The notes beneath the pieces are model-generated. The model worked only from the letters and a program-made list of their open reading frames with translations. It ran no database searches and was not told where the DNA came from. Below are positions 1,654-3,455 of a DNA stretch of 37,294 bases, one piece after another. The position numbers were made by a program, and so were the translations under genes. Position 1 is the first letter of the stretch. Each line of letters begins with the position of its first letter. The stretch is from Patescibacteria group bacterium (GTDB lineage: Bacteria > Patescibacteriota > Patescibacteriia > JAHIZJ01). The stretch covers positions 1-37,294 of the forward strand of contig JAHIZJ010000060.1 in NCBI GenBank assembly GCA_018814765.1. The letters run 5' to 3'.

Positions 1654-2277
1654 TCACTTTCTTTTTATATCACTTTTGATCATTTCTATAATTTCTGGAA
1701 ACGCAGGTATTTGGAAATGTCCGTGTATGTGCTTGTATATTTTAATATTTGCGTTTTTTAATTTAGCTGAATATTTCTTTGCGTGTGAAATAGGAACTAC
1801 ATTATCATTTTTAGAAAAAAGAAGGGTGAGCTTTTTAGAATTCTTTTCTAAAAGCGATAAGTCTGGCTTTGGCTCGAATCCACCTGCTAAATCTTCACCT
1901 GCTAAAGTGTTGTCATAAGGAGGACAGACTAGATAGGCAGATAAAATCTTTTTGGGAAATTTATTTTCAGACAGATACTTTACCAAAAATATTCCACCCA
2001 AGGACTCACCTATCAGGATCAGATTGTTATTTAATTTGGGAAAGAATCTCTCAAAGTGTATTGCCCAGTCACTATACTTCGCATTGTCTTGCAAAGGCAT
2101 ACGGGGCCTTATGATGTGAAATTTACTTCCCAGCTTTTTATCCAAATACTCTCCATTCCAGGCTATCTTCTTGTCAATAGACACTTCTCTATTTTTAATA
2201 AAACTAAAGTAATCCTTTTTATTAACAAAGGTCATTCCTCCATGAATATATAATATTTGTGTTTTTCGTTTGGGCAT
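1654..2277 (-). CDS. Alpha/beta-fold serine hydrolase (RBBP9/YdeN-like)
   Basis: A 207-residue soluble protein with the full set of alpha/beta-hydrolase landmarks. It has an H-G-G oxyanion-side motif (12-14), the nucleophile elbow G-E-S-L-G-G with Ser92, an acid candidate in S-K-N-D-N-V-V-P (Asp158) and a late histidine in H-I-H-G-H-F (His185 or His187). The short length, lack of a lid domain and the I-R-P-R-M-P and S-D-W segments resemble the RBBP9/YdeN group of small serine hydrolases; the substrate is unknown. No signal peptide is visible, so it should act in the cytoplasm. It stands alone between the broken Nudix gene and the transposase, and no clear promoter or terminator was seen. Family assignment is firm, exact activity is not. 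Confidence 0.78.
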   Translation of the reverse strand: MPKRKTQILYIHGGMTFVNKKDYFSFIKNREVSIDKKIAWNGEYLDKKLGSKFHIIRPRMPLQDNAKYSDWAIHFERFFPKLNNNLILIGESLGGIFLVKYLSENKFPKKILSAYLVCPPYDNTLAGEDLAGGFEPKPDLSLLEKNSKKLTLLFSKNDNVVPISHAKKYSAKLKNANIKIYKHIHGHFQIPAFPEIIEMIKSDIKRK

Positions 2278-2343
2278 GAAATTTTTCTTTTTCTCTTTTT
2301 ATAATCTCACATTCTAAGAAATAATGCTAATTCTTAAAAATGT

Positions 2344-2376
2344 GCGCCTGAAGACGCGCTTACGGCGGTAGGAGAC
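2344..2376 (-). repeat. REP-like element, copy A
   Basis: An 18-base core at 2344-2361 is identical to 2646-2663 inside the transposase gene, and similarity continues to about 2376 (roughly 28 of 35 positions over the longer alignment). It can form a small G/C-rich hairpin. It lies about 40 bases past the transposase stop, the usual place for REP elements served by this transposase family. Confidence 0.6.
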
Positions 2377-2416
2377 AGATATTCGTTTATTTAGATTGTA
2401 ATTCGCTATTGCGTTA

Positions 2417-2968
2417 TTATTTGTCGAATAACTTATGGACTAGCTTTTTATTGATACAGAGGTAGGGATAGGCTTCACCTTCTTTTACTAAACCGTGTTT
2501 GATCGGATTAATGCGTAAGTATTCAATATGGAGCCTGAAATCATTATCACCACGAATAATATGGTCGTGGAAGGATTTGTGCCATGTATGTTTAATTCCA
2601 CCACAACCCGCAAGCGAGTGTTTACGCTCGCAGTTTAAATGAGGCGCGCCTGAAGACGCGCTTGCGCCGGTGGTAGACGAATAAGTGTTTATAAGATTAA
2701 TAATTCGAGCTGATCTACCCTTAATTATACTCATTACTTTTGAAATGGTATTGCGCCTTGGCTGTAATAAAATATGAACATAGTTAGGAATAATTACAAA
2801 ACCAAAGATGTCGACATTCATTTGGCCCGATGCATTGTGCATTATTCGCATTAATATTTCACAATTATTACTGTTTGAAAAAATATTATGATTTTGATAT
2901 GTCCTAGTGGTCACGAAATATATCGCATTTTTCAGGTATATACGTTTTTGGCTGTTTTTGTGATACAT
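2417..2968 (-). CDS. REP-associated tyrosine transposase (Y1/HUH family), altered HUH motif
   Basis: A 183-residue member of the single-strand Y1 transposase family, REP-associated (RAYT) branch. Visible landmarks are F-V-T-T-R near residue 18, F-V-I-I-P-N-Y-V-H-I-L-L (57-68), W-H-K-S-F-H-D-H-I-I-R (129-139) and I-E-Y-L-R-I-N-P-I-K-H-G (148-159) with the expected catalytic Tyr150. The family's H-x-H metal-binding pair is normally N-H-V-H; here it is N-Y-V-H (Tyr63, His65), which a single C-to-T change (CAT to TAT) explains and which should impair metal binding. Residues about 100-127 form a Ser/Gly/Cys-rich insert with no place in the family fold; it is encoded by a palindromic element at 2598-2673. 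The frame stays open throughout. The protein is probably inactive or weakly active. Confidence 0.75.
   Translation of the reverse strand: MYHKNSQKRIYLKNAIYFVTTRTYQNHNIFSNSNNCEILMRIMHNASGQMNVDIFGFVIIPNYVHILLQPRRNTISKVMSIIKGRSARIINLINTYSSTTGASASSGAPHLNCERKHSLAGCGGIKHTWHKSFHDHIIRGDNDFRLHIEYLRINPIKHGLVKEGEAYPYLCINKKLVHKLFDK
2598..2673. repeat. Palindromic REP pair (BIME/MITE-like) inside the transposase gene
   Basis: About 76 bases with imperfect inverted ends: CCACC and GCAAGCG on the left (2598-2616), CGCTTGC and GGTGG on the right (2659-2673). Each half folds into its own small stem, and the left half read on the minus strand resembles the right half, so this is a pair of REP units in inverted orientation. 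The right half shares an 18-base identical core with copy A (2344-2361). It is much richer in G and C than the flanking gene and does not break the reading frame. Confidence 0.6.
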
Positions 2969-2991
2969 AAAAGCAGGGATGTTCTTCCTGC
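2969..2991 (-). terminator. Hairpin with T4 directly before the transposase start
   Basis: Arms 2973-2979 and 2985-2991 form a seven-pair stem (one G-T pair) with a five-base loop. On the minus strand it is followed by TTTT (2972-2969) and at once by the transposase ATG (2968-2966). It could end transcription from the Nudix gene upstream, or limit transposase expression. Confidence 0.45.
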
Positions 2992-3083
2992 GGTATATTT
3001 ACAATACATATATTATTTGTATATGGTAAGTTCTACGTTATTCTCTTCATCGAAATTATCTAGCTAATATGTAAATAACTACG

Positions 3084-3455
3084 CTACATCAAAAAAAGTT
3101 TTATGACCGGAGACACATCATACTCCTTTAGCTCTTCTTTACGAACCCACTTATAGTCAGTGTGTTCAGGGCTGAGTTTCAATTCTCCAGAATAAGACAA
3201 GATCGTAAAATAGTTGATATGCAAATCTAGTTCCCCTTTTTTATATGAACGCTGCATTACAATTTTATCTGGAACAACGGTTAAAGAAGTTTCTTCCAGA
3301 GTCTCTCTAATAACTGCACCTTCAGGAGGTTCATTTATATTATTTTTACCTCCAGGAAAGTCCCATACACCCGGAAACGTTTTTGATGTAGGTGCTCGTT
3401 TCAGAATCAGGTACTTACCATCTTTGATTATTAAGGATTTTGATATTTCTAACAT
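3084..3455 (-). CDS. Nudix hydrolase (MutT-like)
   Basis: A 123-residue single-domain Nudix protein. The Nudix box is complete in spacing: Gly36, Glu42 after five residues, then seven residues, R-E-T-L-E-E (50-55) and T-S-L, with Ser in place of the usual final Gly. The W-D-F-P-G-G-K lead-in and L-I-L-K-R strand are typical of MutT and related nucleoside-triphosphate pyrophosphohydrolases. The likely reaction is hydrolysis of a nucleoside diphosphate-X substrate with magnesium; which one cannot be read from the sequence. The ATG at 3455 overlaps the last codons of the P-loop kinase gene by seven bases, so it is the last gene of the mraY operon. It is a distinct, intact protein from the broken Nudix gene at 1103-1566. 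Confidence 0.85.
   Translation of the reverse strand: MLEISKSLIIKDGKYLILKRAPTSKTFPGVWDFPGGKNNINEPPEGAVIRETLEETSLTVVPDKIVMQRSYKKGELDLHINYFTILSYSGELKLSPEHTDYKWVRKEELKEYDVSPVIKLFLM

Follow-up and report, generated by a model that had tools for sequence, protein, structure and literature searches.

The window analysed here is a stretch of 37,294 nucleotides from a Patescibacteria group bacterium, whose genome comprises 1.38 Mb in 139 contigs. Its reverse strand carries an open frame for a protein of 183 residues, uninterrupted from ATG to stop, which the preliminary description had taken for a REP-associated transposase. As a homologue of that family the frame stands confirmed: NCBIfam NF047646 (REP_Tyr_transpos) covers residues 7-169 with 110.8 bits (cut-off 80), the Pfam Y1_Tnp match being confined to residues 16-91, and full-length homology to RAYT/TnpA_REP proteins (class 2 TnpA_Y1) was found with NF047646 and, in both sequence and fold, with the solved structure 4er8. 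The HuH stretch reads IIPNYVHILL, in which the codon of His65 lies at 2774-2776 and the first metal-binding His is replaced by Tyr63. The catalytic Tyr150, described earlier as kept, is indeed retained in the alignment, as is N154, so that the Y---NP motif of RAYT proteins is present; the W motif is W-H, where most relatives have W-Q. Given that Tyr63 stands in place of the first HuH His, the two-His HuH of RAYT/TnpA_REP enzymes is absent, and this work accordingly lists the protein among homologues whose HuH is broken and not among active RAYTs. A REP adjacent to the gene and dispersed in the genome, another mark of RAYT genes, was found in the form of the single REP that follows the stop codon plus five other places outside the gene. 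The features are collected in the table.

Table. Features of the RAYT-family gene and its REP sequences (positions in the window)
Feature	Positions	Strand	Basis
RAYT-family gene (TnpA_REP homologue), 183 aa, HuH = N-Y-V-H	2417..2968	-	NF047646, fold, 4er8
Tyr63 codon (TAT), at the first metal-binding His position	2780..2782	-	alignment
Tyr150, catalytic Tyr position, Y---NP motif (YLRINP)	2519..2521	-	alignment
Trp129, W motif, aligned to W of WQ in E. coli TnpA_REP	2582..2584	-	alignment
Inverted REP pair (REPIN), in frame, residues 99-124	2598..2673		dispersed copies, model
One REP of the pair: foot GCAA + hairpin GCGAGTGTTTACGCTCGC	2610..2631	+	sequence
Other REP of the pair: foot GCAA + hairpin GCGCGTCTTCAGGCGCGC	2644..2665	-	sequence
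Single REP, same family as the internal pair, 41 bases past the stop codon	2344..2376	-	33 bases, 88%

The claimed in-frame read-through of a 76-base inverted REP pair was verified, the pair encoding residues 99-124. Its arms (2609-2631 and 2644-2666) are 78% complementary and make up the 76 bases together with the outer parts. Taken alone, this palindrome is not beyond chance: its best short stem was equalled in 23 of 100 codon shuffles, and its DNA fold gave a z of -1.4, with 19 of 200 shuffles equally good. The pair was accepted as a real REP element because dispersed copies of it exist. The family has seven copies in the genome, four of which are pairs (two extra 15-base matches were treated as chance and are excluded from this count). 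The best dispersed copies, on contigs C30 and C18, are 86-87% identical over 63 bases (E 3e-16 and 6e-15) and have their left flanks in common, and the others lie on C37, C26 and C104, in addition to the single REP beside the gene. The feet of the REPs in the window are GCAA/GTAA, arranged in a two-REP unit. Among the seven copies, only that in the RAYT gene falls within a long open frame, and none of the other six overlaps a frame of more than 70 residues. An RNA family as the identity of the element was considered and dropped, since no Rfam family matches positions 2200-3100. At two of the dispersed loci (L017 on C37 and L020 on C104) a second palindromic repeat, with GGTCAGATCGACCTGATCTGATC or a sequence close to it, is nested inside the REP; elsewhere in the same genome (L021, on C64) a GGTCAGATCGACCTGATCTGATC-type repeat is present without a surrounding REP, a case of one repeat nested in another.

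An AlphaFold2 model of the protein, built with a ten-sequence alignment as input (mean pLDDT 83.3), gives residues 100-122 a pLDDT below 50 and places them between helix 75-101 (alphaC) and strand 134-137, from which the insert is predicted to loop out. The fold check proposed earlier thus puts the REP-derived residues in a low-confidence loop. The statement that the pair adds about 25 residues is right in comparison with RAYT proteins devoid of a REP; it does not hold in comparison with the siblings of the protein, whose own inserts make its length ordinary.

The search for an intact, uninterrupted close copy elsewhere in the genome found none. Pfam Y1_Tnp matches at 13 places in this genome (split matches counted once), and in seven of these, namely the window gene, L002, L003, L005, L006, L007 and the broken L008, the coding strand carries a palindrome between HuH and the W motif. 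The palindromes differ from gene to gene, and for several of them further copies are scattered over the genome; none of the 13 outside copies of the paralogues' REPs that were checked overlaps an open frame longer than 96 residues. The nearest paralogue (L002, 48% identical) has an NHIH motif and its own, different palindrome at the corresponding site, and its motifs (NHIH, WQ and YIKNNP) fit those of Quentin subclass 2.4. In L005, L006 and L007 the palindromes occupy the published beta3:alphaC site (L005 and L006 were placed by script, L007 by eye). The broken genes L008 (on C42) and L081 (in genome G002) run across several frames and still contain clear palindromes.

The distribution of the internal palindromes was followed beyond this genome. 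A search with the window protein in 380 genomes of its class gave a match at E 1e-12 or better in 28. A first set, comprising the 90 distinct ORFs from all fetched loci, contained 74 that could be scored, the others being devoid of the needed landmarks; the palindrome was reached by at most 1 in 100 codon shuffles in 35 of them and by at most 5 in 100 in 44. In a second set, drawn from named genomes (75 ORFs, 64 scorable for the same reason), the corresponding figures were 12 and 17. Among the controls, in groups as classed in the analysis, the limit of 5 in 100 was reached by none of seven IS200-like ORFs and by two of 17 other Y1 ORFs. In a tree of 75 of the 90 ORFs (without L052, the ORFs shorter than 125 residues and the rows containing unread stretches), the window protein groups with L040, L002, L081, L042 and L080 (SH-aLRT 99), and in a second tree of 50 rows, hand-chosen from 165 ORFs, this group falls within a clade of 36 rows with an SH-aLRT of 94%. 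The clade spans Patescibacteria, Peregrinibacteria, Gracilibacteria, Cloacimonadota, Spirochaetes, Leptospiraceae and Bacillota. Thirty of its members have a strong palindrome in the variable region that precedes the W motif: 26 are reached by at most 1 in 100 codon shuffles, and L061, L081, L143 and L147, which lie outside the shuffle-tested set, have perfect or near-perfect ones. The palindrome of L003 is weak (5 in 100 shuffles) and the window row is a two-REP unit, while the palindrome is missing from four members whose frames are intact (L138, L140, L141 and L156). One of these, L141, has a sister (L151, 69% identical) with a palindrome of 26 pairs, which makes L141 a case of loss of the palindrome with the frame intact. 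The palindrome is therefore not indispensable.

These results alter two points of the preliminary description. A REP inside the gene of its own enzyme had been considered unusual; most RAYTs of the clade carry one, and the feature is, in the available part of PMC6006769, the published hallmark of subclass 2.4. A decayed gene had also been implied. Since most RAYTs of the clade, intact ones included, carry an insert in the corresponding stretch, it is no sign of decay, and the REP as the cause of decay was rejected on the same grounds. In some RAYT genes, the segment with the insert has been multiplied: L168 (281 residues) has its palindrome-bearing segment in tandem duplicate, the units beginning at 423 and 534 of the frame, and L037 and L052, both from G036, have repeated coding segments holding the insert before the W motif, the frame of L052 continuing into some 240 residues of an unrelated-looking protein.

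What is kept among these inserts was addressed with 26 zero-loop palindromes (25 distinct), aligned on their centres; palindromes that were looped or scored below 11 were left out, as were L087, L051, L204, L136 and L142, which have other motifs. Watson-Crick pairs fill 341 of the 350 cells. In the 25 distinct palindromes standard pairs amount to 98.3%, compared to 69.9% in shuffles, none of 500 being as high, a percentage that is inflated by the selection of the rows as palindromes, the codon-shuffle test being the fairer measure. What the pairing analysis adds is that homologous sites with different sequences still pair: 13 of the 14 pair positions show changes in both partners, with a covariation score of 0.70 compared to 0.06-0.10 for slid partners. 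The palindrome is centred at one common codon position in 24 of the 26, L137 and L160 being read in another phase. The kept pairing, the changes on both sides and these two readings argue that the nucleic-acid element, and not the peptide, is what is conserved; an adaptation at the level of the peptide was rejected on account of the variable peptide sequence and of the two palindromes in another phase. The idea that the palindromes are more conserved in sequence than the gene was rejected as well, their DNA showing the higher identity in only 107 of 207 pairs and thus changing at about the pace of the remaining gene. A further candidate, the covariation of W-H with a GCAA foot, was dropped, L075 and L180 combining W-H with GAAG feet.

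One explanation of these inserts is that they are neutral scars, left because REPs often land in or near the RAYT gene by action in cis, so that in-frame insertions into a tolerant loop survive and pairing is high simply because the inserts are young. Several observations fit: the loop is disordered in the model, L141 has lost the palindrome with no harm to its frame, PMC6006769 judges, in its available part, that such an insert is likely of little impact, and the dispersed copies are near-identical within a genome among the matches listed. Regarding the last point, joined inserts gave matches in all 15 genomes searched with them (own internal copies included), and among the matches listed exact stretches of 27 to 29 bases recur elsewhere in the own genome for L040 (G002), L083 (G055) and L093 (G198), while the palindrome of L095 appears outside its own gene in G014 and G055 and not in its own G084; likeness within a genome is therefore common but not universal. 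Close to the genes, a scan of 53 ORFs with 1.5 kb around them found outside copies for L059, L060, L062, L066, L037 and L001, and none for most genes. However, neutral scars would hardly be expected to share one stretch and one codon phase, as 24 of 26 palindromes from many genera do, nor to be present in 30 of the 36 clade members. In addition, in three of the four closest pairs among those listed (L136/L142, L002/L081 and L055/L057) the palindrome is identical letter for letter at a protein identity of 63-71%, and the inserts are thus not always fresh. On balance, the neutral explanation seems rather unlikely.

The kept pairing also bears on a second alternative, autoregulation, in which the hairpin would act in the mRNA or in single-stranded DNA and the RAYT would bind its internal REP, damping expression or protecting the gene. 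The pairing is maintained independently of the peptide, the relatives have zero-loop stems of 11 to 27 pairs in the coding strand, and in 4er8 the E. coli RAYT is, according to the structure title, bound to a REP hairpin; but the weak hairpin of the window gene itself, the existence of clade members with no palindrome and the lack of an Rfam match in 2200-3100 make this explanation improbable.

The change at the HuH motif concerns the window copy in particular. The replacement of the first metal-binding His by Tyr63 was corroborated: in 151 aligned rows this position is His in 148 and Tyr in three (the window protein, L006 of the same genome and L193), and the second His is Asn in three. The attribution to one C-to-T change is deduced from the His codons. 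As for homologues with the same insert and NYVH, which had been expected to speak for a functional variant, the insert region is shared, but Tyr is present in no sibling and in only three of the 151 rows, that of the window protein included. Judging from the function of this residue in enzymes of the HuH type (described in the available part of PMC6006769), the window enzyme is probably impaired in cleavage.

Of the 28 columns at which 90% of the other rows agree, the window protein departs at 4, and L002, with an intact HuH, likewise at 4 of 29. Its branch is the longest in the six-row clade (0.68, compared to 0.27-0.32, in the 75-ORF tree) and 19 of 20 relative-rate comparisons give it the larger number of unique changes. 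However, siblings with intact HuH also differ about two-fold among themselves (8:20 for L002 and L080), so that the rate evidence is weak and the notion of a strong acceleration loses force. Could Tyr63 belong to a working variant, with Tyr as a metal ligand, or with a protein that binds REPs as a regulator and does not cut them? The intact frame, the small number of departures and the independent EYVH of the paralogue L006, with its Y and N kept, are compatible with it; the absence of Tyr from all siblings, the fact that each of the three losses of the first His gave Tyr, as expected from a C-to-T change, and the long branch tell against it, and it is regarded as quite unlikely.

Catalytic-site variants were also observed in other genes. 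L006 (on C8) is a RAYT of a separate clade with palindromes at beta3:alphaC, and L193, the RAYT of Stenotrophomonas maltophilia Sm46PAILV (frame from 1417), has PDYIH where its relatives L166 and L210 have PDHIH. In L143, L147 and L203 (from Patescibacteria, Parcubacteria and Buchananbacteria) it is the second HuH His that is replaced, by Asn (YDHLN, YDHLN and YDHIN), and Val replaces the strand 1 Thr that is invariant in the ten-sequence alignment. The three retain perfect internal palindromes of 14, 15 and 27 pairs, and they look like a conserved H-U-N variant.

The observations can be integrated into a model that we consider reasonably probable: the window gene would have a cognate REP that is built in throughout its clade, and in this particular copy H63Y has probably impaired the enzyme. 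The RAYT-homologue frame holds a REP of its own genome in the loop between helix alphaC and the strand before the W motif. This built-in REP would be ancestral in the clade and either renewed or kept as a nucleic-acid element, and the RAYT would act on it in single-stranded form, while the loop would tolerate it with no harm to the protein. The most likely reason for the arrangement may be that a RAYT gene holding its own substrate always travels and persists with its REP, forming a one-gene REPtron, and the copy in the gene could reseed the family. In the window copy, the ancestral single palindrome may have been replaced by a two-REP unit of the dispersed family; H63Y probably impairs cleavage, although the copy retains an open frame, the catalytic Tyr and almost all of the conserved residues. 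As a tentative extension, for which our confidence is low, the in-frame REP of this cross-phylum clade could be a selected part of the gene, a covarying hairpin of the alphaC-beta4 loop that is the enzyme's own substrate. Gene, enzyme and repeat would then form one coding unit, able to reseed REPs after transfer or to regulate itself, with no need of the flanking REPs that define a REPtron.

Links between RAYTs and REPs have so far been drawn mostly from their proximity, and REPs inside the genes were disregarded as likely to do no harm. A clade with a perfect, pairing-conserved cognate repeat in its coding sequence makes enzyme-substrate pairs readable from one gene and allows the joint inheritance of RAYT and REP as a single unit to be tested, for which the Y-U-H and H-U-N variants of these families offer natural changes of the catalytic site.

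In-frame REPs inside RAYT genes are already known. In the available part of PMC6006769 (Quentin 2018), they are described as a unique and predominant feature of subclass 2.4 (Bertels group 4), whose entry in Table 1 lists a variable insertion in beta3:alphaC and the motifs NH[IFV]H, WQ and YIxNNP, and the insert is judged likely of little impact. As far as that description extends, the window gene resembles the subclass in its in-frame REP between HuH and Y, the REP beside the gene, the Y---NP motif and the lack of a tail domain, and its relatives do so in their double-foot palindromes. It differs in the site of the insert, which lies at alphaC:beta4, after helix 75-101 and before the W motif, and not at beta3:alphaC (among 69 palindrome-bearing ORFs submitted to the script, 48 inserts were at alphaC:beta4, 5 before the helix, and 16 were not placed). 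It also differs in its motifs, NYVH, WH and YLRINP, which fall outside those of the subclass, and in its feet, G[CT]AA in a two-REP unit and not the published GT[AG]G or double-foot REP; GTAG/CTAC feet are present in some relatives (L040, L058). Patescibacteria are not among the groups named for subclass 2.4 in the same part of PMC6006769, and in the open-access texts searched no RAYT with an internal REP was found for Patescibacteria or the Candidate Phyla Radiation. What is added here is a second insertion site (alphaC:beta4), the presence throughout a clade across phyla, the pairing kept despite change of the peptide, and the occurrence in Patescibacteria.

Other known systems share some of these traits. 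E. coli TnpA_REP (4er8) is the best solved relative of the window protein (sequence E 2.4e-16, fold E 1e-8), and the W, Asp/Glu, His and Arg of its foot-reading region align with it; in contrast, its HuH is intact, it has no internal REP, and the Gln that follows its W corresponds to His in the window protein. A survey of 2013 (PMC3733652) reports, in the part available, that in several species REPs occur within coding genes, and it refers to the Rickettsia palindromic elements (RPE), which are likewise palindromic repeats in frame within genes; as given there, RPE occur in various genes, whereas the internal copies found here lie in RAYT genes only. Finally, the element resembles a REPIN in that two inverted REPs form a single dispersed unit, and it differs in that the window family has few copies, at seven places with four pairs, one of them inside its RAYT gene.
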